A stretch of 64,000 nt of DNA, from positions 44,177-108,176 of the forward strand of contig NZ_AOIO01000031.1 of the NCBI RefSeq assembly GCF_000337555.1. The letters run 5' to 3'. Origin of the DNA: Natrialba asiatica DSM 12278 (GTDB lineage: Archaea; Halobacteriota; Halobacteria; Halobacteriales; Natrialbaceae). Below are positions 2,122-14,833 of this stretch, one piece after another (the stretch's first letter is position 1; each line of letters begins with the position of its first letter). The position numbers and the translations under genes were made by a program. The notes below the pieces were generated by a model. The model was not told the origin of the DNA. It saw only the letters and a program-made list of their open reading frames with translations, and made no database searches.

Positions 2122-2287
2122 CGTGCGATCGTCTGTCAGGGATCGCTATTAGCGTTCGCCCGAGCGGATCGCGTTTCCTCCTGTCCGGTTACTCGTCCCT
2201 GGTGTGGTAGTTGGTGTGGTAGAAAAACTCATGCACGCTCGCGTTGTGAATGCACGCACCGCGATCCACCACCGAACGGAGCAGCCA

Positions 2288-4396
2288 ATGTCCAGTGATC
2301 AACACCAGACCGACGAACCGGTCACGACGATTTGCCCGTACTGCGGTGTCGGCTGCGGGATTCAGGTTACACAGGGCGATGACCCGGGTGACGTGCAGTT
2401 CATGCCCTGGGGCGACGCGCCGGTCAACGAGGGCCGCATCTGTATCAAAGGCGGCGCGGCGACGGAGGTCGTCGACCACGAGGACCGACTGACCGACCCG
2501 CTCATCAAAGACGACAGCGGCGAGTTCCGCGAGGCGACCTGGGAGGAGTGCTACGAGTTCATCGTCGGTGAACTCGAGCGGATTCGTGCGGCGTACGGCC
2601 CGGACGCGGTGGGCTTTTTCGGCTCCTCGAAGACGATGAACGAGGAAAACTACCTCCTGCAGAAGATCGCCCGCCGCTACGGGACGAACAACGTCGACAA
2701 CTGCACGCGGATGTGCCACGCCTCGACGGTCTGGGCGTTGCGGACGAGTCTGGGTGCGGGCGCGATGACGAACAGCATGGCCGACTTGCGGGCCGAAACC
2801 GACGTGTTCTGGATTCAAGGGGCCAATCCGGGCGAGCAACATCCCATTGCGAACAGCCAGTACTTCCGGCAGGCCGTCCTCGACGGCGCGACCGTCGTCC
2901 AGGTCGATCCGCACGCGAACAAGACGACTCGTTCGTTCCAGATCGACGAGACGGATCGACACATGCACCTCCAGTTGAATCCGGGGACCGACGTTCCCCT
3001 GTTGAACATCGTCCTCAAAACGGTGCTCGAGAACGATTGGATCGACGACGAGTTCATCGCGGAGCGAACCGAGGGCTTCGAGCACCTGCGGGAGACGCTC
3101 GCCGAGTTCGACAAAGCAGCCGCCGCCGAGGAGTGTGGGGTCCCGCTCGAGCGGATCGAACTCGCCGCGAAGAAGTACGCCACGGCCGAGAACGCGGCCG
3201 TCTTCACCGGCATGGGGATGAGTCAGCACCGTTGCGGCGTCGACAACGTCCAGAACGAGATCAACCTGGCGCTGATCACGGGGAATCTCGGTCGCCCCGG
3301 GACCGGCGTCAATCCGCTGCGCGGCCAGAACAACGTTCAGGGGACCTGCGACGTGGGCGCGATGCCGAACGTCCTGCCGGGCTACCAGCTCGTCGACGAC
3401 GACGAGGCCCGCGAGCGCGTCGAGGAGGTCTGGGGCTTCGACATCCCCGACGAGCCCGGCCTCACGAACGTCGAAATCTCACACCAGTTCGGCGACGGGA
3501 TTCGCGGGCTGTACGTCATGGGCGAGAACCCGATCATGAGCGAACCCGACGCGAACCGGGTCGCAGAACGGATGGAAGAACTCGAGTTCATGGTAGTGCA
3601 GGACATCTTCCCGACGGAGACGGCCGAGTACGCCGACGTGATCCTTCCGGCGACGACCTGGGCGGAGCGCGGCGGGACGGTCACCAATACGGATCGTCGC
3701 GTCCAGCGGATGCGCGGCGTCGAGAAAGTTCACGAGAACACGAAACACGATCTCGAGATCCTTTCGGAAGTCGGCGCGCGACTCTTCGGCGCGGCCGGAT
3801 TCGACTTCGATACCCCCGAAGCCGTCTTCGAAGAACTCCGGCAGGTCTGCCCGAGCTACCACGGGATGACCTACGACCTGCTCGGCGAGGAAGGGCTCCA
3901 CTGGCCCTGCTACGAACTCGGCGACGAGGGCGACCCGTACCTCTACGAGGAGACGTTCGACACCGAGAGCGGCCTAGGACACATCGAGGGCGTCAGACAC
4001 ACCCCGCCGGCCGAGACGCCGGACGAGGAGTACCCGCTGATCCTCACGACGGCGCGGCTCGAGGAGCACTACAACACTGGGACGATGAGCCGCCGGTCGC
4101 CGACGCTCAACCGCCAGACACCGGAGAACTTCGTCGACGTCCATCCGGCTGACGCCGAGCGGTACGGCGTCGAGGACGGCCAGACGGTCACCCTCAGATC
4201 CAGACGCGGCGAGATCACGGTCGAGGCGCAGGTCACGGAAGACACCAAGGAGGGCGTCGTCTGGACGACGCCGCACTTCGCGGCCGCCTCGGCGAACAGG
4301 CTGACGAACGACGTGCTCGACGACCGGGCGAAGATCCCCGAGTACAAGGCCGCGGCGGCGGAGATCGAGGTAGGGCTCGAGCCCGCAGACGACTGA
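2288..4396 (+). CDS. fdhF: Formate dehydrogenase alpha subunit (molybdopterin, Cys-type)
   Basis: A 702-residue enzyme of the DMSO-reductase superfamily. The N-terminal [4Fe-4S] site is visible as Cys16, Cys19, Cys23 and Cys52 (CPYCGVGCG, then RICIKGG). Cys143 in TRMCHAS sits where selenocysteine or cysteine ligates Mo or W in formate dehydrogenases, so this is a cysteine form. The last third carries the molybdopterin-dinucleotide binding domain (NTGTMSRRSPTLNR near residue 600). An upstream ATG at 2204 was rejected because ATG 2288 begins the protein as in relatives and the upstream residues are not domain-like. There is no Tat signal, so it is probably cytoplasmic, oxidising formate to CO2. 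No beta or gamma subunit is adjacent. Confidence 0.88.
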   Translation: MSSDQHQTDEPVTTICPYCGVGCGIQVTQGDDPGDVQFMPWGDAPVNEGRICIKGGAATEVVDHEDRLTDPLIKDDSGEFREATWEECYEFIVGELERIRAAYGPDAVGFFGSSKTMNEENYLLQKIARRYGTNNVDNCTRMCHASTVWALRTSLGAGAMTNSMADLRAETDVFWIQGANPGEQHPIANSQYFRQAVLDGATVVQVDPHANKTTRSFQIDETDRHMHLQLNPGTDVPLLNIVLKTVLENDWIDDEFIAERTEGFEHLRETLAEFDKAAAAEECGVPLERIELAAKKYATAENAAVFTGMGMSQHRCGVDNVQNEINLALITGNLGRPGTGVNPLRGQNNVQGTCDVGAMPNVLPGYQLVDDDEARERVEEVWGFDIPDEPGLTNVEISHQFGDGIRGLYVMGENPIMSEPDANRVAERMEELEFMVVQDIFPTETAEYADVILPATTWAERGGTVTNTDRRVQRMRGVEKVHENTKHDLEILSEVGARLFGAAGFDFDTPEAVFEELRQVCPSYHGMTYDLLGEEGLHWPCYELGDEGDPYLYEETFDTESGLGHIEGVRHTPPAETPDEEYPLILTTARLEEHYNTGTMSRRSPTLNRQTPENFVDVHPADAERYGVEDGQTVTLRSRRGEITVEAQVTEDTKEGVVWTTPHFAAASANRLTNDVLDDRAKIPEYKAAAAEIEVGLEPADD

Positions 4397-4507
4397 CCGA
4401 ACGAGGGGTGACCGCGCAGGATCGAGGCAGGCGGCCGACGACCAGTTTCGGCGTGCGGACGGCACTTATGCTCACCGGGACCCAAGAGCGACCAACGAAG
4501 AGAGCCA

Positions 4508-4933
4508 ATGAAACTACAGATTCTGGACGGGGAAATCGGGATCGACGAGTCGATTATCGCCGAATCGGCAGCCGAAATCCGGGCGCAGGTGCGCGAGTAC
4601 GAGCGGGGCGACCGGCGGCGCTTCGACCTCGACGTAACCGTGCCCGACGGGCTAACCGGCGACGTAATGGCCGCGATGATGACAATCCCCTACGGCGAAA
4701 CGCGCACGTACGGCGACCTCGCCGCCGACCTCGGAACGAGTCCAGTCGCCGTGGGCCAGGCCTGCGGCCGCAATCCCGTGCCGGTAGTCGTCCCCTGCCA
4801 CCGCGTCGTCGGTAGCGACGGCGCGCTCACCGGCTACTCGGCGGCCGACGGCGTCGCGACGAAGCGCCGGCTGCTCGAACTCGAGGCGCGCGAGAGCGGC
4901 GGCCCGGTACAGATGCGATTGCCGACGAAGTGA
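4508..4933 (+). CDS. ogt: Methylated-DNA--protein-cysteine methyltransferase (Ogt/AGT family)
   Basis: A 141-residue suicide DNA-repair protein that takes alkyl groups from O6-alkylguanine onto its own cysteine. The acceptor Cys97 lies in the signature VVVPCHRVV. The preceding IPYGETRTYGDLA segment is the usual start of the C-terminal winged-helix domain, with the asparagine hinge in GRNPVPVVVP. The protein is shorter than E. coli Ogt because the N-terminal domain is reduced, which is common in haloarchaea. It follows fdhF by 111 bases on the same strand; there is no evident functional link. Confidence 0.92.
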   Translation: MKLQILDGEIGIDESIIAESAAEIRAQVREYERGDRRRFDLDVTVPDGLTGDVMAAMMTIPYGETRTYGDLAADLGTSPVAVGQACGRNPVPVVVPCHRVVGSDGALTGYSAADGVATKRRLLELEARESGGPVQMRLPTK

Positions 4934-4997
4934 CGCTATCGTAGAACTGTTCTCGCACCTCGATCTAATGATTACAACTACCTGTCAGTAACGACAT

Positions 4998-5540
4998 CTA
5001 CTTCTCGTTCGGGTAGTCGCGCTTCTCAGACCATTCAAACTCGTTGATGTCAGCGTCCCAGTCCGAGATAGTCCCGCTCTGAACGTCGTGAACATGGAAT
5101 TGATTATCTGTCACTTCGACAGCAGCTTGGTCCCCGAATTGAACAGTATTGAAATCCTCTCGGGAGATTTTTGTGTTCCGACATCCCCATTCATCGTCCG
5201 AATTGAAGTCGCTCCCGCAAAAACCGACGACGTATTTTACCGCCTCGAAATCGGACTTGGAGTCATCATGAAAGTCCGCTGAAGCAGTAACTTCGGAGGG
5301 AGAAGAAATAACACTCTTATATTCCGATGCCACTCTACCCCGTATCTCGCCTTCTCCATCGAACATTAACTGAAGAATTTGGTCACCGTACGAGCGCCCG
5401 TTATGACGCCATTTGACACTGATGGCTTTCAACTGAAGCAGCTCGGCAGAACGAGTATTCGGCCCCAAAAGGCAGCCTGCACTTCCAATTCCTATGAGAC
5501 CAGCACCCGAAGTAGCTAGTAGTTCCCGCCTGGAAGGCAT
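4998..5540 (-). CDS. Tat-exported putative lipoprotein, low GC
   Basis: A 180-residue protein starting with a twin-arginine signal (SRRELLATSG), a short hydrophobic stretch and a lipobox-like SAGC at residues 20-23, so it is probably exported by Tat and anchored by lipid. The rest has no family I recognise; it contains two further cysteines (GFCGSD, EWGCRN) that could pair. GC content is clearly lower than in the flanking genes and the codons include many A/T-ending ones, suggesting acquisition by transfer. A TATA-like box at 5561-5568 sits about 24 bases before the ATG. Confidence 0.7.
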   Translation of the reverse strand: MPSRRELLATSGAGLIGIGSAGCLLGPNTRSAELLQLKAISVKWRHNGRSYGDQILQLMFDGEGEIRGRVASEYKSVISSPSEVTASADFHDDSKSDFEAVKYVVGFCGSDFNSDDEWGCRNTKISREDFNTVQFGDQAAVEVTDNQFHVHDVQSGTISDWDADINEFEWSEKRDYPNEK

Positions 5541-5560
5541 TAGTTACAATCAGATAAGAA

Positions 5561-5568
5561 ATATAATA
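5561..5568 (-). promoter_or_regulatory. TATA-like promoter of the low-GC lipoprotein gene
   Basis: The minus-strand sequence reads TATTATAT, centred about 24 bases before the ATG at 5540. That is the normal archaeal TATA distance from a transcription start, so the mRNA would be nearly or fully leaderless. Confidence 0.5.
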
Positions 5569-5698
5569 TGCTTTCCGGTATGTCGGAATAGAAACCCGTC
5601 CGTTCACACCGGAGCTACCGGCGAGTTCGGCTCAGTTCTGCGTGGGTGGATTCCGTGCAACCGGTTCTATGACACTCTCGACGACGTGAGAGTTCGCC

Positions 5699-6127
5699 TT
5701 ACTCGACATCGTCGTGCGTCAGTAGCGGTCGCTCGCGCTCGCCCGCCGGCGACTCGTAGGTGATCACCTCGAGCAGGTTCCCGCTCGGATCGAGGAAGTA
5801 GAACCCCTCGAACTCGTCCCAGTCGTAGGGCCCCTGCTTCGGAAACTGGCCGCCGAGTTCAGCCGTCAGCCGCTCGTACTCCTCCCGGTCGGTCTCGAAG
5901 GCGACGTGGGCCTTGTCGAGCGGGTGATCGAGGCCGCGCTCGTCCCAGGCGTCGGCGCGACCGGTTTCGGCCAGCGTGACGACCGTCTCGCCGACCTGGA
6001 ACATGGCGTGCTCGCCCCGGAAGTCGGACGGCTCGCGGCGGACGCCGAGCCCGAGTTCGTCGCGGTAGAACTCGTAGCAGGCGGCGAGGTCGTCGACGTC
6101 GATGTTGATGTGGTCGACTGCGTGCAT
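5699..6127 (-). CDS. VOC family (glyoxalase/dioxygenase superfamily) protein
   Basis: A 142-residue single VOC domain with two beta-alpha-beta-beta-beta modules. Putative metal ligands are His5 (AVDHINID), a His in KAHVAFET and a Glu in LLEVITY near residue 120. These resemble glyoxalase I, fosfomycin-resistance proteins and ring-cleavage dioxygenases. It is the last gene of a minus-strand set that starts at 9067 and lies 8 bases after the third binding-protein-like gene, so it is probably part of that operon. Its substrate cannot be read from the sequence; the context suggests it acts on the same compound as the three upstream proteins. Confidence 0.85.
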   Translation of the reverse strand: MHAVDHINIDVDDLAACYEFYRDELGLGVRREPSDFRGEHAMFQVGETVVTLAETGRADAWDERGLDHPLDKAHVAFETDREEYERLTAELGGQFPKQGPYDWDEFEGFYFLDPSGNLLEVITYESPAGERERPLLTHDDVE

Positions 6128-6135
6128 GGGTATCG

Positions 6136-7137
6136 TCAGGTCCGCGGTTCCGTTTCCGACTCGGCGACGCGCTCCGCGTAGTTCCCGATCACCTCGTCGT
6201 CCGCGTCGATGAACTCGTTCGTCCAGACCGCGTCGGGATCGATCTCACCCTCGAGAAGATCCGTCTCGGCGAGCGTCCGGCCGAGCGTCCGCCAGCGCTC
6301 GCCCTCGTGCACGCCCCATCCCTCCGCCCGCGTCCGGTCGGTGAACTGGAGGTCGGTCGCCGCCGTCTCGAACTTGCGCCGCTCGACGGGTCGATTCCGT
6401 TCGAGCGTCGCGTTGCGTTCGACGAGCACGTCGATCGCCGCATCCGGGTCGGTCGTCGCGGCTGCCCAGCCGCGGGCGGTCGCCCGGAGAAAGGAGCGGA
6501 CCGTCTCCGGCTCTGTGCGGGCGAACTCCGGGCTTGTGACCAGCATCATCCCGTAGACGCCGAGGTGATCCCCGATCGGGAGTTCGTCCGCCGTGCGGTC
6601 GTGTTCGCGCTCGAGTTCGTAGCCGTTCGTGACGACGCCGACGGCGGCGTCGACCCGGCCGTCGAGGAGCTTGTGCTGCACGCGGTGGTGCGTGTGATCG
6701 TCGACGCCGAGGAGGTCGACCGCTTCTGCGATTCCGGCGTCCGCGAGCAACTGAGCCGTCAAGATGCGCGTCTTGGTCGCCGACGGCGCGACGGTCCGGT
6801 CCGCGAGTTGCGCGGGTTCGGTCAGCGCCTCGCCGAACTCGTCCCGGAGGGTGTAGATCGCGGCGGGCGTCTTGCCGGTGACGGCGGCGACGGCGAGCGG
6901 GTCGAGCCCGCGGCTCTGCACCGAGAGGACGGCGCTTGCGCCCGCCAGCGCGAACTCGGCTCGACCTTGGGCGGCTTGCTCGGCGGCGAAGGGCGAGCCG
7001 TGGCCCTCGACGAACCGCACGTCCAGTCCCTCGTCGTCGTAGAAGCCGCGATCGCGCGCGAGGAAGTAGGGTGCCTGAAAGCCGTTCGGCTCCCAGTTGA
7101 GTTGAAAGTCGACGGTCGGTGTCGCGTCCGGTGTCAT
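6136..7137 (-). CDS. NMT1/THI5-like PBP-fold protein without signal peptide (third of triad)
   Basis: A 333-residue type-II periplasmic-binding-protein fold. The start (FQLNWEPNGFQAPYFLARD, then GFYDDEGLDV) is typical of the NMT1/THI5 and SsuA-like family. The ATG at 7137 overlaps the previous stop as ATGA and the fold begins about ten residues later, so there is no room for a signal peptide or lipobox. The family contains ABC-transporter solute receptors and also soluble enzymes such as yeast THI5. The fungal CCCFC iron motif is absent, so HMP-phosphate synthase activity is not supported. No permease or ATPase gene lies nearby. Either a cytosolic enzyme or a receptor exported in an unusual way. 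Confidence 0.82.
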   Translation of the reverse strand: MTPDATPTVDFQLNWEPNGFQAPYFLARDRGFYDDEGLDVRFVEGHGSPFAAEQAAQGRAEFALAGASAVLSVQSRGLDPLAVAAVTGKTPAAIYTLRDEFGEALTEPAQLADRTVAPSATKTRILTAQLLADAGIAEAVDLLGVDDHTHHRVQHKLLDGRVDAAVGVVTNGYELEREHDRTADELPIGDHLGVYGMMLVTSPEFARTEPETVRSFLRATARGWAAATTDPDAAIDVLVERNATLERNRPVERRKFETAATDLQFTDRTRAEGWGVHEGERWRTLGRTLAETDLLEGEIDPDAVWTNEFIDADDEVIGNYAERVAESETEPRT

Positions 7138-8162
7138 TGCGACGGCACCTCCAGCCGGAACAGGTCGTCCGGGACGTGATCGACGCCGAGTGCCTCCGGG
7201 CCGGCGACTGCGAGCAGGTGATCGAACAACTGTTCCATCGCATCGACCGTCTCCGCGTTCCACTCGGTAACGACCATCTCCCGCCAGTGATCCCGAACGC
7301 CGCGAACGACGGCGGGGTCGTTCCCGTACATGAGTCGGTCGCCCAACTCGTCCCAGAGTTCGTCGTCGGTTTGCAGGCGCTCGACGGCGTCGGCGTACGC
7401 GCGCTTGAACCCCCGGATGGCTTCTGGCTGGTTTGCCAGGTAGTCCTCGCTCGTGAGGAACGTCGAGATGGGCAACGTCTGCTCGACGCCCGAAAGCCGC
7501 TGGACGAGTTCGGCCATCGGGATCGCTTCGCGGTAGGGGCCGGGCTCGACGAGTTCGGGGATGAGCTGCCAGAACTGGAGGGCGGCGTCGACCTCCCCGT
7601 CGCGAAGCAACCGGGTGAGTTCGACTTTCGAGCCCGCCTCGACCGACGCGGCTTCGGTTTCGGGATCGAACTCGTGGAACTCGCGGCAGGCGGCCCGCGT
7701 GAGAATCCAGTTCTTGTCGAGGCGGCGGACGACGCCGATGCGGTGGCCGGGGAGGTCGGCCAGGCCGTCGATCGGCGAGTTCTCGGGGACGACGAGGCCG
7801 CCGACGGTTCGGCCGTAGGGATGGACGGCGACGATGGGTGCGCCGCCGGCCCGCTCGCGCGCCGTCGAGATGTAGTCGATGTCGATCAGATCCGCGTCGC
7901 CCTGGTGCAGTTTGGCCTCGACCGTTTCGAGGCCGTCCTCGAGTTCGTCCGAGACGAGTTCGACGTCGAGGTGGAAGCCGTGGTCGTGGTCGAAGCCGAA
8001 CCGCTTGATGGTGTACAGCATGTAGCGGGGGCTGCCGTTGTGTTCGAAACGGGCGCGCAGTTCCGGAAGCTTAAGGCCGGTCGCGTCGTCGCTCTCTGTC
8101 CGAGCGGGTGCGTCGTGGAGTTCGTCCAGTGCCGCTTGCTGGGTTTCGATGTCGATGGTCAT
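7134..8162 (-). CDS. NMT1-like PBP-fold protein without signal peptide (second of triad)
   Basis: A 342-residue protein of the same superfamily as its two neighbours. It has a linker-like N-terminus of about 30 residues, then the fold: RYMLYTIKRFGFD, a GDADLIDIDYIS segment and VPENSPIDGLADLPGHRIGV, the usual hinge region of NMT1-like receptors. ATG 8162 overlaps the upstream stop by four bases, and the downstream gene overlaps this one the same way, so the three are translationally coupled. The upstream in-frame candidate at 8231 was rejected because it would lie deep inside the previous gene. There is no signal peptide, transmembrane segment or lipobox. Substrate unknown. Confidence 0.8.
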   Translation of the reverse strand: MTIDIETQQAALDELHDAPARTESDDATGLKLPELRARFEHNGSPRYMLYTIKRFGFDHDHGFHLDVELVSDELEDGLETVEAKLHQGDADLIDIDYISTARERAGGAPIVAVHPYGRTVGGLVVPENSPIDGLADLPGHRIGVVRRLDKNWILTRAACREFHEFDPETEAASVEAGSKVELTRLLRDGEVDAALQFWQLIPELVEPGPYREAIPMAELVQRLSGVEQTLPISTFLTSEDYLANQPEAIRGFKRAYADAVERLQTDDELWDELGDRLMYGNDPAVVRGVRDHWREMVVTEWNAETVDAMEQLFDHLLAVAGPEALGVDHVPDDLFRLEVPSQ

Positions 8163-9067
8163 TGGCTCGAGGGGGAGACGATCGTCCTGATGTCGGCCCG
8201 GTCGTCGATCAGCTCTCGATCCTTCATCCACTCGAGGTGACCGTCGAGTTCGTCCGGATCGGCGAGTTCTGGGACCTCGTACCGGGGAACGGTCACCGAC
8301 TCGCGAACGGTTTCGAGGTCGATATCGTCGAAGAGATCCGGTGCGATATCGGCGTCCGACTCGAGCATCGCGAGGTACCGTTCGCGGAAGGCTTGCGGGT
8401 CGTCGTTGATCGCCTCGACGGCGCGGCCGTAGGCTCGCATGAAGCCGTCGAGGTCGTCCCCGTCGAGCGCGTCGGTGCCGACGATACCGATGTGGTTTTC
8501 GAAGGCGAGAACCTGCTCGAAGCCGAGGTGGTCGGCGAGGGTGCTGTGTGGATCGAGGAGCGTGATGGCGTCGGTATCGCCGTCACGGAGCGCCTGCAGC
8601 CGCTCGGTCGGCATGCCGAAGTGTTCGAGTTCGATCTCGTCGGGGTCGACGTACTCCTCGAGCGCTTTGATGGCGGTGTACTCCTGGCCGGTCCGACGAT
8701 TGACGCCGACGGGGACGCCGGCGAGGTCGGCGGGCGAGTTGATCGGCGTTTCCGGCCGCGTGTAGAGCGTGTACGGAAGGTCGGCAAACGTTCCGTGGGC
8801 GACGATTTTGCCGTCACCGAGCGACCAGGTGCGCCGGAGGCTCTCCCACTTGCAGACCGGGTAGAGGTCGACGTTGTCGTCGCCGGTCAGCGTCCAGTCG
8901 GCCGGGACGTACTTCCAGTCGACCCGTTGGCGGTCTCGTTCGACCAGTTCGACGTCGAGTCCCTCGTCCTCGAAGTAGCCGCGCTCGGCTGCGACCCGTT
9001 GTGGCAGCATGAACGAGAACGGGAGGTGAAAGATGCGCAGTGCACTCTGTATGTCACTCGATGCCAT
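8159..9067 (-). CDS. NMT1-like PBP-fold protein without signal peptide (first of triad)
   Basis: A 302-residue protein that begins almost directly with the binding-protein fold (LRIFHLPFSFMLPQRVAAERGYF). It contains LYTRPETPINSPADLAGVPVGV, the conserved segment near the hinge, quoted here without its last residues being unusual. Overall it also resembles 4,5-dihydroxyphthalate decarboxylase-like proteins, which use this fold as a cytosolic enzyme. ATG 9067 was preferred over 9094 because a TATA-like box lies 28 bases upstream of it. It is the first gene of the operon that continues through two paralogous genes and a VOC gene. No transporter genes accompany it. Confidence 0.8.
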   Translation of the reverse strand: MASSDIQSALRIFHLPFSFMLPQRVAAERGYFEDEGLDVELVERDRQRVDWKYVPADWTLTGDDNVDLYPVCKWESLRRTWSLGDGKIVAHGTFADLPYTLYTRPETPINSPADLAGVPVGVNRRTGQEYTAIKALEEYVDPDEIELEHFGMPTERLQALRDGDTDAITLLDPHSTLADHLGFEQVLAFENHIGIVGTDALDGDDLDGFMRAYGRAVEAINDDPQAFRERYLAMLESDADIAPDLFDDIDLETVRESVTVPRYEVPELADPDELDGHLEWMKDRELIDDRADIRTIVSPSSQ

Positions 9068-9091
9068 ACAGTGTGTGACGGCAACGGGCGG

Positions 9092-9098
9092 CATAAAA
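9092..9098 (-). promoter_or_regulatory. TATA-like promoter of the PBP-fold/VOC operon
   Basis: The minus strand reads TTTTATG, centred 28 bases before the ATG at 9067. The position suits a leaderless operon mRNA. A second AT-rich element (GTATAAACG on the minus strand) lies near 9112-9120 and is an alternative. Confidence 0.5.
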
Positions 9099-9209
9099 CG
9101 TTTCTAGGGATCGTTTATACGCCTGTTAGCGGCGAATACAGTCATCGCTGGCTGAAGTAAGATTCACGTATCGCACTCGCTGAGCATACAGGTAACGGCA
9201 ACTGATATC

Positions 9210-9557
9210 ATGGACCACATACAGACGGCCGACGTCACCGCCGAGGAGGTTGCGGACGGCGTCTATCTCGGCGATCTCTTGGTGGGCGAACGGGCGAGCA
9301 TGAAATACTGGCGGATCGAACCGGGAGCGACGTTGCCCGCCCACGAGCACGACAACGAGCAGATCGGCTACGTACTATCCGGAACGCTGATAGCGATCGT
9401 CGAGGGGGACGAGATCGCTCTCGAAGAAGGTGACGCCTACCGGTTTCCGAGCAACGAGTATCACGGGGCTGAAAACCGACGCGACGAACCGGCGATCGGA
9501 CTCGGCGTCCTCGCACCGCCACGGCGGCGACCGGACTGGCGGACGAACGTTGACTGA
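9210..9557 (+). CDS. Small cupin-domain protein
   Basis: A 115-residue single cupin barrel. Motif 1 is present as PAHEHDNEQIGYVLSG (His, His, Glu ligands) and motif 2 as FPSNEYHGAEN with the second-motif His. Such proteins usually bind a divalent metal and act as dioxygenases, isomerases or small-molecule sensors. The gene is divergent from the binding-protein-fold operon, sharing a 142-base intergenic region, so it could belong to the same pathway. No substrate can be named. Confidence 0.82.
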   Translation: MDHIQTADVTAEEVADGVYLGDLLVGERASMKYWRIEPGATLPAHEHDNEQIGYVLSGTLIAIVEGDEIALEEGDAYRFPSNEYHGAENRRDEPAIGLGVLAPPRRRPDWRTNVD

Positions 9558-11027: not shown

Positions 11028-11960
11028 ATGTGGGAGCAAACTATGTGTGATGAGAACATGACACATGTAAATGCGAGGCGGGAGCTATCAGGCGCAGACC
11101 AAACGAAACTGGCGACGCAACTCGGTGCGACCGAGGTTCCCGATCAGCCGGTAACGTGGAGCGACCTGGCGGGACGGATCGAACCGGACCGATCGCCGAC
11201 GCTCGCGGCCGCCGGCGCGACGATCCGAGGTGAACTCGCGGAGCGACTCGACGGCGAGGTACTCGAACGCGAGCGCGACAGGCTTGCGGCCCGGATCGAG
11301 CGGCTTCCCGAGGTTCGGGAGACCGGCGTTCCGAACGAGCCCCACGGTTGTTACGAGGCGGTGGCCGACCCCGGCTGGCGGCTTTACGAGCACCTGGCGG
11401 AGGGCGAGTTCTTCGAGCACCTCGACGAGGCGCTGCCGCGGTTTACGCCCGCACACATCGAGCGCACCGCGCGGGAGCTGGTGCTGACGACGCCGCTTTC
11501 GGCGGCGCTCGACGATGTCGGGTTCGACGAGTCAGAGAAGACGGCGTTGCTGATCGCCGTCGCGAACGACGCCGACCGGCTCGCTCGGTGGGTGCCGTCG
11601 AACCAGATTCCGGACGGTGTCGAGTTCGATACGACGACCGTCCCGCCGCTTCACCGGCGCGCGATGGGCGGGGCGTTGCTGTGGATTCGGGGACTCGACC
11701 GGCACCTCTGGCAGAACGAGGTGCTCGTCACCGAGGAGGTCCTCGACGCCGCCATCGCGCACACGAAGACGATGCTGGGCGGCCTGTTCCTGTCGGCGAC
11801 GGCCGCCTGCGATCTCGCCACGACGGGGCGGCTCACGGACGAACAGGTGACCGCCGCGCTCGCGGCGGGGACGGCGGTACAGATCGTCGGGCAGGAGGAG
11901 CTGTTACACGAGGTGTTCTACGTTACCGACGAGACGCGCGCGCCGAGCAAACTGAGGTGA
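11028..11960 (+). CDS. Uncharacterised helical protein, first gene of quinoprotein operon
   Basis: A 310-residue soluble, mainly helical protein with no signal peptide. Three in-frame ATGs lie close together (11028, 11043, 11058), so the start is uncertain; 11058 is preceded by a GATGAGAAC stretch and is also plausible. The second half holds TPAHIERTARELVLTTPLS and a C-terminal helix bundle. I recognise no family. The next gene, a PQQ alcohol dehydrogenase, starts 6 bases after this stop with its GAGGTGAG ribosome binding site inside this gene's end, so the two are almost certainly co-translated. A chaperone, cofactor or electron-transfer partner role is only inferred. Confidence 0.75.
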   Translation: MWEQTMCDENMTHVNARRELSGADQTKLATQLGATEVPDQPVTWSDLAGRIEPDRSPTLAAAGATIRGELAERLDGEVLERERDRLAARIERLPEVRETGVPNEPHGCYEAVADPGWRLYEHLAEGEFFEHLDEALPRFTPAHIERTARELVLTTPLSAALDDVGFDESEKTALLIAVANDADRLARWVPSNQIPDGVEFDTTTVPPLHRRAMGGALLWIRGLDRHLWQNEVLVTEEVLDAAIAHTKTMLGGLFLSATAACDLATTGRLTDEQVTAALAAGTAVQIVGQEELLHEVFYVTDETRAPSKLR

Positions 11961-11966
11961 GTACGC

Positions 11967-13676
11967 ATGGCACTTCGCAACGACAGGGCCGTTCAGGCCG
12001 CACGCGACATCGAACTGACCGAGATCGAAGACGGCTACACGCTCGTCGGCGGCCCCGACGACTCCGTCACCGAACAACACGACACCGACCGGATCCCGGA
12101 GGTCGACGTCGACCAGGAGATGCTGAGCGGGACCGGGGAGGACCCCGAGTCGTGGCTCATGTACGGCGGGAACTACGAACAGCACCGAACGACGACCGCC
12201 GACGTCATTACGCCCGACAACGTCTCCGATCTCGAACTCGAGTACGAGCTGTCGGTCGGCACCGGCTCGAGCATGGAAGGGACGCCGATCGTCGTCCCGG
12301 GGGATCCGCCGATCATGTACCAGACCAACGGGCCGAACCACATGAAGGCGATCGATCCCCGCGAGGGGGAGGTCCTCTGGAGTTACACCTACGCGCCGCC
12401 GATCGGCGTCGAACTCTGCTGTGACGATAACAATCGCGGGGCAGCCGTCCTCGGCGACACGGTGTACATGACGACGCTCGACTCGGGGATCGTCGCGCTG
12501 AACCGGTACACCGGCGAGGAGGAGTGGCACACGCAGACGGCGGACCACGAGGTCGGCTACTCTGCGACGTGGGCCCCGGTGATCTACGACGGCACACTGT
12601 ATACGGGCAGCGCCGGCGGCGAGTACGGCGTCCTCGGATTCATCGCCGGCCTCGACGCCGAAAGCGGTGACGTGCAGTGGAAGTGCGACACGCTGCTCGA
12701 GGACGAGTGGGTCGGCGCGAGCCGCGAGCACGGCTGCGGGACGAGCTGGATGACGCCGACGATCGACGAAGACCGCGGCGTCCTCTACTCGCCCGTCGCG
12801 AACCCGGGACCGGACTTCGACGGGACGGTCCGTCCAGGGCCGAACTTCCCGACCTGCGGTACGCTCTCGCTCGACCTCGAGTCCGGCGAGTTCAACTGGG
12901 GATTCCAGAGCAGTCCGCACGACGTCTGGGACTACGACGCGGCGGCTCCGCGGGTGCTGGTTCCGGACGTGGAGGTCGAGGGCGAGTCGACGGACCTCGT
13001 CGTCGGCTCGGACAAGTCCGGGTGGGTGTACATGATGGACGCCGAGTCCGGTAAGCTCCACGAGCGCAGCGAGGAGATCTGCCAGCACATCAATATGTGG
13101 GAGATGATCCCGCACATCAGCGAGGACGAGCGGGTTCCGTTCGTTCCCGGCGCGCCGGGCGGCAACGACTGGCAGCCCCCGTCGTACAACCCGGAGACGG
13201 GGCTGGTGTACGTCATCCACCAGAACTATCCGCAAGACCTCTACTGGCGGTACGAGGAGTACGACGCCGGCCACCCTTACTGGGGCGGGAACCTCGACGA
13301 TCCGGCATCCGAGTTCCCCGACGAATGGAACGGTGCGATCACCGCCTTCGCCGCGGTCGATCCGGCGACGGGCGAGCGCGTCTGGCGCGACTGGATCGAA
13401 AGCGAGGACGACCACTACATGTGGGGCGGCTCGTTGTCGACCGCGACGGGACTCGTATTCAACGGCACTCAGAACGGTATTTTCGTCGCCTACGACGGCG
13501 AGAGCGGCGACCGGCTCTGGGAGTACGAGTTCGACGTGCCGATCAGTGCGTCGCCGATGAGCTGGTACGATCCCGGGGAGGAGAAACAGTACGTCGCCGT
13601 GCAAGTCGGCGGCAGCGGCTGGCTCCGGCAGGGGCCACGCGGCGACACGCTCGCCGTGTTCTCGATGGACGACTAA
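11967..13676 (+). CDS. PQQ-dependent alcohol dehydrogenase with lanthanide-type active-site pair
   Basis: A 569-residue eight-bladed quinoprotein of the methanol/ethanol dehydrogenase family. Visible landmarks are the vicinal disulfide Cys151-Cys152 followed by NRG, the metal ligand Glu219 (GSAGGE), Asn279 (VANPGPDFDG), and Asp322-Tyr-Asp324 in PHDVWDYD. The second Asp of this Asp-x-Asp pair is the extra ligand of lanthanide enzymes (XoxF, PedH); calcium enzymes such as MxaF have a small residue there. The enzyme would oxidise an alcohol with PQQ and pass electrons to an acceptor, plausibly the cupredoxin encoded next. Oddly, no signal peptide is seen, although bacterial homologues are periplasmic. 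Substrate unknown. Confidence 0.87.
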   Translation: MALRNDRAVQAARDIELTEIEDGYTLVGGPDDSVTEQHDTDRIPEVDVDQEMLSGTGEDPESWLMYGGNYEQHRTTTADVITPDNVSDLELEYELSVGTGSSMEGTPIVVPGDPPIMYQTNGPNHMKAIDPREGEVLWSYTYAPPIGVELCCDDNNRGAAVLGDTVYMTTLDSGIVALNRYTGEEEWHTQTADHEVGYSATWAPVIYDGTLYTGSAGGEYGVLGFIAGLDAESGDVQWKCDTLLEDEWVGASREHGCGTSWMTPTIDEDRGVLYSPVANPGPDFDGTVRPGPNFPTCGTLSLDLESGEFNWGFQSSPHDVWDYDAAAPRVLVPDVEVEGESTDLVVGSDKSGWVYMMDAESGKLHERSEEICQHINMWEMIPHISEDERVPFVPGAPGGNDWQPPSYNPETGLVYVIHQNYPQDLYWRYEEYDAGHPYWGGNLDDPASEFPDEWNGAITAFAAVDPATGERVWRDWIESEDDHYMWGGSLSTATGLVFNGTQNGIFVAYDGESGDRLWEYEFDVPISASPMSWYDPGEEKQYVAVQVGGSGWLRQGPRGDTLAVFSMDD

Positions 13677-13711: not shown

Positions 13712-14833
13712 ATGACGAACGAACACCGCTCACGCGACGACGTGTCCCGTCGCGGCGTGCTGAAGGGAACGGCGGCGATCGCCGGAACGGCGGCGACGGC
13801 CGGGACCGCAGGCGCGTATCGCGACGAGATCGACTTCCGACTGCCGGCCACACAGAACGACGGCGAGGGGCGAACGCTCTCGCTGCTCGGCATCGTCGGC
13901 GGCTGGGTCGGCGTCGCCCCGGCCGAACTCGACGGGAAGTCGAACCCGACGCTGCGATTGATCGAGGGCGAAGAACACGAAATCGTCTGGACGAACGGCG
14001 ACGGTTCGAACCACAACTTCACCGTCGCCGACGAGGACGGTGAGGTGATCGAAGCGACGGACTTCGTGAACGAACAGGGCGAATCACTCTCGTTTACGAT
14101 CACCGCCGACGAGGAGATGGCCGAGTACTACTGCATGCCTCACCCGGTTCAGATGCGCGGTCCGATCGAACTGGTCGACGCGGATGAGGTCCACGAGTTA
14201 CGGGTGCGAGTCGAGGACGAGAACGGCGAGCCGCTCGGCGCGGAGGTATTCGTCGGCGATCACCACTCCTTCTCCGACGTCGCCGCGCGGCCGGGACAGG
14301 AAACGGAAGAGAGTCCGCCGTCGATCGCCCGCTTCGACATGCTCGAAGACGGCGAGTACGAACTCGAGGTCTGGACCTACGGTCACGAGCGGGTGACCGA
14401 CACGGTGGCGATCGACGGCGACGATCAGGAAGTCACCGTAACGCTGCCCGCTATCGAACCCGGCGATCCGACCGAAACCTACGCGCTCCGGCTCGAGGAG
14501 GGCCAGTGGGTCGGCGTCGGTCCCGACGAGATCGCTGACGAATCGAATCCGACACTCGAGTTCGAGGCGGGCGAGACCTACGCGATCGAGTGGGAGAACG
14601 CGATCGGTCGCCATCAGCCCGAGGCGGAGAACAGGTCGACAGAACCGCTGCCAGGGCACAACCTCGTGCTTGCATCCGGCGGCGAAACCAACGAGTGGGA
14701 TACCCTCGTCAGATCGGATTTCCTCGACGAGAGCGGGGAGACACAGACCGTCGAGTTCGTCGCCCAGGAGGAGATGGGGGTCTACCTCGACCAGTCACAA
14801 CTCGATGCGATCGGCGAGGTTACCGTCGAGTAG
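13712..14833 (+). CDS. Tat-exported two-domain cupredoxin with one copper site
   Basis: A 373-residue protein with a Tat signal (SRRGVLKG, Ala-rich stretch to about residue 35). Residues 52-155 form a plastocyanin/halocyanin-like domain with copper ligands His101, Cys141, His144 and Met148. Residues 160-245 look like a carboxypeptidase-regulatory-like beta domain. Residues 255-373 repeat the first domain's opening (WVGVGPDEIADESNPTL against WVGVAPAELDGKSNPTL) but the Cys, second His and Met are replaced (VYLDQSQL), so its copper site looks lost. The gene follows the PQQ dehydrogenase by 35 bases and probably supplies its electron acceptor outside the membrane. Confidence 0.85.
   Translation: MTNEHRSRDDVSRRGVLKGTAAIAGTAATAGTAGAYRDEIDFRLPATQNDGEGRTLSLLGIVGGWVGVAPAELDGKSNPTLRLIEGEEHEIVWTNGDGSNHNFTVADEDGEVIEATDFVNEQGESLSFTITADEEMAEYYCMPHPVQMRGPIELVDADEVHELRVRVEDENGEPLGAEVFVGDHHSFSDVAARPGQETEESPPSIARFDMLEDGEYELEVWTYGHERVTDTVAIDGDDQEVTVTLPAIEPGDPTETYALRLEEGQWVGVGPDEIADESNPTLEFEAGETYAIEWENAIGRHQPEAENRSTEPLPGHNLVLASGGETNEWDTLVRSDFLDESGETQTVEFVAQEEMGVYLDQSQLDAIGEVTVE

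Follow-up and report, generated by a model that had tools for sequence, protein, structure and literature searches.

This locus raises the question of whether a quinoprotein dehydrogenase of the haloarchaeon Natrialba asiatica DSM 12278 could use a rare-earth metal. The gene lies in a 64,000-nucleotide stretch of DNA, here called the window, and is an intact open reading frame running from ATG to stop with 569 codons and no internal stops. It is conserved in related genomes, where open frames at matching positions encode proteins of 82-99% identity; the closest named relative is that of Natrialba aegyptia (99%). The protein matches the Pfam PQQ profile PF01011 at 178.1 bits against a cut-off of 26.7, which places it in the propeller superfamily. 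The match to TIGR03075 (methanol/ethanol family) is full-length but scores 357.9 bits, below the curated cut-off of 480, indicating a divergent member. The second NCBIfam match, TIGR04528 (acido-empty-quinoprotein group A), is also below cut-off (271.6 bits against 650). The AF2 model (pLDDT 89) adopts an eight-bladed quinoprotein fold like that of PedH, XoxF and ExaA. In a Foldseek search of the PDB, the best match is PedH (6zcv, E 1e-45, TM 0.82), XoxF structures (6fkw, 6dam and 4mae) are further top matches, and the best five are all lanthanide enzymes.

Residue positions were judged from phmmer alignments and from an alignment of 38 proteins that includes PedH, two XoxF proteins, ExaA and E. 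coli Gcd; the metal site at D324 was assessed solely through alignment and the fold match. The 38-protein alignment places E104 (E55 in MxaF numbering), C151-C152, R157, E219, W261, N279, D322 and D324 of the window protein at PQQ, metal and catalytic positions (Table 1). The preliminary description had listed the Cys pair, E219, N279 and D322-Y-D324 as being in place, and both phmmer and the 38-protein alignment bear this out, since all of them match the PQQ/metal site of PedH and XoxF. The alignment check it had proposed puts Asp324 on the lanthanide-ligand position, not elsewhere: the motif reads WDYDA in the window protein, WDFDG in PedH and WDYDG in XoxF. Its statement that calcium enzymes have Ala or Ser at this position holds for MxaF (WDFAG) and ExaA (WDFSG) but is too narrow, as Thr is found in the quinohaemoprotein alcohol dehydrogenases (WDYTS/WDFTA) and Asp in E. 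coli Gcd, an Mg/Ca enzyme (WDMD).

Conservation of this residue set is high. D322, D324, N279, R157, W261 and K350 are invariant in 58 of 58 distinct haloarchaeal sequences, and D322, D324, N279, K350 and R157 are also invariant in a 36-row alignment that includes actinobacterial proteins; the set is thus not a product of chance. The Cys pair is more variable: 45 of the 58 haloarchaeal proteins keep it, whereas several deep clades lack it, as does the second copy in this genome (C22, L039). The window gene encodes an eight-bladed quinoprotein dehydrogenase with a full set of PQQ, metal and catalytic residues, including D-x-D, a haloarchaeal form of an enzyme class that is already known.

Table 1. 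Features of the dehydrogenase locus, in window coordinates
Feature	Coordinates	Strand	Remark
Partner gene up310, all-helical predicted protein, no Pfam/NCBIfam/PDB relative	11028..11960 (likely start 11058)	+	
PQQ-type (quinoprotein) dehydrogenase, 569 aa, methanol/ethanol-dehydrogenase superfamily	11967..13676	+	N-terminal signal peptide absent
E104, aligns with PQQ-contact Glu of XoxF	12276..12278	+	alignment
C151-C152, vicinal Cys pair	12417..12422 (codons 12417, 12420)	+	alignment
E219, predicted metal ligand	12621..12623	+	alignment
N279, predicted metal ligand, invariant	12801..12803	+	alignment
D322-Y323-D324, catalytic Asp and lanthanide-type second Asp	12930..12938 (codons 12930, 12936)	+	alignment
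K350, position of the PQQ-contact Arg of XoxF/PedH/MxaF	13014..13016	+	alignment
Blue-copper (plastocyanin/azurin-like) protein, Tat-like signal SRRGVLKG..., likely electron acceptor	13712..14833	+	conserved in window clade

The rare-earth reading of this site, as first proposed, is sound in part: the enzyme belongs among the PQQ-type dehydrogenases, and the position of Asp324 in the alignment is that of the lanthanide ligand. Lanthanide use itself is not established, given that D-x-D is widespread, that the haloarchaeal proteins form their own clade, that Lys350 replaces Arg, and that Na/Ca exchangers are encoded near the haloarchaeal dehydrogenase genes. In a lanthanide-dependent enzyme, the second Asp would bind La, Ce, Pr or Nd and a rare earth would be needed in vivo; this reading is held tentatively, at close to an even chance. 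It is favored by the invariance of D-x-D across all haloarchaeal homologues, whether or not their clade has the Cys pair, by the retention of E219 and N279 as in XoxF and PedH, and by the identity of the five best fold matches. In addition, the motif is treated in the literature as an indicator of lanthanide binding (PMC11996626; PMC5487730). Against this, D-x-D prevails across the whole family, occurring in 61% of 6,328 marine PQQ-dehydrogenase sequences, and it is present in the Mg/Ca enzyme Gcd (PMC11996626), so the motif alone predicts at most a possible lanthanide.

Residue 350 also counts against a lanthanide. Every lanthanide structure compared has Arg at this position, which is occupied by Arg in XoxF (4mae, 6dam, 6oc5, 7o6z), PedH, ExaA and MxaF, whereas Lys is common to the haloarchaeal enzymes, E. 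coli Gcd and the calcium-dependent quinohaemoprotein alcohol dehydrogenases. An IQ-TREE phylogeny of 38 proteins recovered the 20 haloarchaeal sequences as one clade (100/100) that falls outside the XoxF, PedH/ExaA and actinobacterial groups and is therefore not grouped with characterised lanthanide enzymes. The features that define XoxF/MxaF membership, grouping with XoxF and Arg at the PQQ contact, are both lacking in the window dehydrogenase. Its nearest relatives outside the haloarchaea are proteobacterial and actinobacterial proteins of 33-35% identity.

Genomic context provides another clue to the metal. A Na+/Ca2+-exchanger gene (PF01699) lies within 10 kb of at least 16 of 42 dehydrogenase genes, compared with about 1.0 expected if kinship is ignored. 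This count covers 20 genomes, and the positives among the matches listed come from at least 14 of them, in several genera. One or two such genes are seen near the dehydrogenase at L082, L078, L109, L127, L135, L137 and other loci, across many genera. The clustering hints at a link to a cation, without naming which one, and counts against a lanthanide, the genes seen to cluster with the dehydrogenase being Na/Ca exchangers and not lanthanide genes.

The competing reading, a calcium (or magnesium) enzyme in which D-x-D is merely an ancestral trait, as in membrane glucose dehydrogenase, is a real possibility and ranks next after the lanthanide. Gcd is the precedent, membrane glucose dehydrogenase (m-GDH) being able to complex Ca, Mg, Zn and Sr (PMC11996626), and both the shared Lys350 and the exchanger genes fit. 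The precedent is imperfect: with Asn/Asp at positions 219/279, Gcd is missing the Glu and Asn ligands, and its site therefore differs. Calcium is abundant in brine, so an exchanger need not serve the dehydrogenase. The enzyme may thus take Ln3+, Ca2+ or either of the two.

The source of the cofactor is a separate problem. A search for pqq biosynthesis genes, proposed as a check in the preliminary description, found neither PqqC nor PqqE above cut-off in the genome. The absence extends further: PqqC is above cut-off in none of 391 Halobacteria, and PqqE in none of the 15 dehydrogenase-bearing haloarchaea tested. As a positive control, the same searches match both proteins in 7 of 7 actinobacteria with a 33%-identical dehydrogenase homologue; in one of these (L144), pqqC and a radical-SAM gene lie directly downstream of the dehydrogenase. 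Haloarchaeal PQQ must then be scavenged, made differently or replaced. By analogy with E. coli, which uses PQQ without synthesising it (PMC12124388), scavenging from outside would be the likeliest of these, although another route or a different quinone may take its place.

The gene immediately upstream, designated up310, ends 6 bases short of the dehydrogenase start codon. This previously undescribed gene accompanies the dehydrogenase in almost every haloarchaeal locus. The family is present in 70 of 391 Halobacteria, namely all 69 genomes that bear the dehydrogenase and one with fragments only. The fragments (G192:C1:1281353-1281617) lie in a genome without the dehydrogenase and are probably relics of a lost locus. 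In the first set of loci, up310 adjoins the dehydrogenase in every case, even where dehydrogenase identity falls to 33%; the paralogous locus of this genome is among them. Among the named loci it is adjacent in 62 of 63, with divergent orientation at L136 and L138; one MAG scaffold (L093) has the dehydrogenase without up310. A phylum-wide draw of 393 genomes gave only 7 up310 matches, all from the window's own order, and up310 was not found beside the actinobacterial dehydrogenase homologues. AF2 gives up310 a high-confidence, all-helical model (pLDDT 94, pTM 0.92), for which a fold search against the PDB returned no matching chain (best E 0.35, TM <0.25). Identification as PqqC, a cytochrome or a known small subunit was rejected on the lack of any Pfam, NCBIfam or PDB sequence match and of any fold match; the lone weak Pfam match, to FAD-SLDH (E 0.08), is not evidence. 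The up310 proteins are likely to be a new family confined to Halobacteria.

The N-termini of the two proteins point to a function for up310 in export. An N-terminal signal is lacking in every haloarchaeal dehydrogenase examined, and for the window protein an overlooked signal peptide can be ruled out, since the frame opens directly after the up310 stop. The up310 homologues of deep clades start with Tat-like sequences (e.g., DRREFLKALGVGGAVAAGGATL); RRxFLK N-termini are found on these and on up310 of this genome's paralogue, and the Pfam TAT_signal profile matches 12 of 33 up310 partners. Four dehydrogenases (L067, L125, L126 and L157) combine the absence of an N-terminal signal with a C-terminal STE/G-rich linker and a PGF-CTERM-like surface anchor, so a cell-surface location is expected for them even though only the partner carries a signal. 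The simplest reading is that the folded pair is exported, with up310 as a putative Tat escort subunit. In bacteria, Tat-escort export is used by a few two-subunit enzymes (hydrogenases and the small subunits of flavin dehydrogenases); we know of no description of it for PQQ dehydrogenases.

The window clade departs from this pattern. The same stretch of its up310 proteins reads AEQRDLATTLGVDTPGDG or ADQTKLATQLGATEVPDQ, in which the Tat motif has decayed, and the window up310 is without a Tat signal although the adjacent cupredoxin has one. A cytoplasmic form is conceivable, as the actinobacterial homologues are signal-less too. One actinobacterial operon (L144:5389-10470) encodes a signal-less cupredoxin-like protein, the PQQ dehydrogenase, PqqC and a radical-SAM PqqE, an arrangement that suggests a cytoplasmic PQQ dehydrogenase in Actinobacteria.

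Two other explanations of these data are weaker. In one, which is unlikely, up310 is not an export escort but a cofactor enzyme that inserts the cofactor or catalyses a step of another route to PQQ. That up310 is tied to the dehydrogenase in just those organisms that lack PqqC would suit such a role, as would its all-helical structure and the well-modelled N-terminal helix of the window copy; in sequence and fold, however, it is related neither to PqqC nor to any other enzyme, candidates for the remaining pqq steps are absent, and the Tat-like partner N-termini together with the anchored dehydrogenases favor export. More improbable still is a propeller that has lost PQQ and now has a structural or binding role, as is supposed for the acidobacterial empty-quinoprotein group of NCBIfam: the missing PqqC and PqqE and the second-place match to TIGR04528 would fit, but E104, R157, W261, N279, D322, D324 and K350 are conserved or invariant and would be needless in an empty propeller, PQQ use does not require PQQ synthesis in E. 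coli (PMC12124388), and a second PQQ-type fold (GSDH) adjoins the genome's paralogue.

The gene directly downstream of the dehydrogenase encodes the blue-copper protein of Table 1 and is kept throughout the window clade. More broadly, cupredoxin-like genes occur within 4 kb at 30 of 63 named loci, and blue-copper proteins have been proposed as quinoprotein acceptors in Thaumarchaeota (PMC7300363). The second dehydrogenase copy of the window's genome has as its neighbour (L047:11114-13477, on C22) a Tat-type protein that joins a plastocyanin-like domain to a glucose/sorbosone dehydrogenase (PF07995), the other PQQ-type fold; this fusion is seen at 21 related loci. Upstream in the window, the interval 2204-9557 encodes a formate dehydrogenase alpha subunit, an O6-methylguanine methyltransferase-like protein, a VOC protein, a cupin and three NMT1/THI5-like substrate-binding proteins, with no transporter subunits visible nearby. 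In several genera, the dehydrogenase again has cupin and substrate-binding genes in its vicinity, in Halomarina (L172) together with an aldehyde ferredoxin oxidoreductase. As substrate clues, the NitT/TauT-like substrate-binding genes, the cupin and the formate dehydrogenase were set aside because they fix no substrate.

Taken together, the window protein is probably the catalytic subunit of a haloarchaea-specific quinoprotein dehydrogenase for alcohols or related hydroxyl substrates that works with the up310 protein encoded upstream. In the proposed mechanism, the dehydrogenase would bind PQQ or a PQQ-like quinone, imported or made by another route. A metal held by E219, N279, D322 and D324 would polarise the quinone, D322 would act as the base in alcohol oxidation, and a blue-copper protein, for example the product of the downstream gene, would accept the electrons one at a time. 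The up310 protein would serve as an assembly or escort subunit whose ancestral form bears a Tat signal for export of the pair in the folded state; in the window clade this signal has decayed. The full combination, a lanthanide-dependent, PQQ-scavenging alcohol dehydrogenase brought to the surface by Tat on a helical partner of new fold, with blue-copper acceptors and with the window clade as a derived branch that may have shifted the enzyme into the cytoplasm, is doubtful as a whole.

The lanthanide reading is plausible and unproven, and it is not the most unusual part of this system; up310 and the absent PQQ pathway are more notable. If confirmed, it would add the Halobacteria to the organisms with rare-earth-type quinoproteins and provide cultivable, partly genetically tractable archaeal hosts for such proteins. 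As a suggestion at the sequence level, an extension of lanthanide biochemistry to archaea would not be wholly new, since DYD quinoproteins in marine Thaumarchaeota were noted in 2020 (PMC7300363). How a whole archaeal class without pqqC or pqqE loads a PQQ enzyme is a question that these data raise. For its part, up310 is a ready target, as a family without known fold that occurs only alongside the dehydrogenase and resembles a Tat escort. A search of the open-licence literature for work on PQQ or lanthanide dehydrogenases of haloarchaea yielded nothing, and PQQ is unmentioned in an article on open annotation issues in haloarchaea (PMC8305020).

Among known systems, PedH of Pseudomonas putida, a lanthanide quinoprotein ethanol dehydrogenase (6zcv/6zcw), is the best match in both sequence and fold and shares the Cys pair, Glu, Asn and D-x-D. 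It differs in its low identity (27-28%), its Arg in place of Lys350, its separate clade, and its production in a bacterium with its own periplasm; to our knowledge, PedH has no helical partner. The XoxF lanthanide methanol dehydrogenases (4mae/6fkw/6dam/6oc5/7o6z) likewise have D-x-D, Glu, Asn and the Cys pair, but are at most 28% identical, belong to a different clade and have Arg where the window enzyme has Lys350. E. coli Gcd shares D-x-D and the Lys, whereas it lacks Glu/Asn at 219/279 and the Cys pair, has a membrane domain and sits on a very long branch. The actinobacterial PQQ dehydrogenases (Amycolatopsis, Pseudonocardia, Saccharopolyspora and Flexivirga) are similar in identity (33-34%), D-x-D, Cys pair, Lys and the absence of a signal peptide; they differ in having pqqC/pqqE in the same genomes and no up310 partner. 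The quinoproteins of heterotrophic marine Thaumarchaeota, compared by description, are also archaeal PQQ-type dehydrogenases, some with DYD, but they lack the Cys pair, mostly carry signal peptides and membrane segments, and come from organisms for which, unlike the window genome, a PQQ synthase is reported (PMC7300363).
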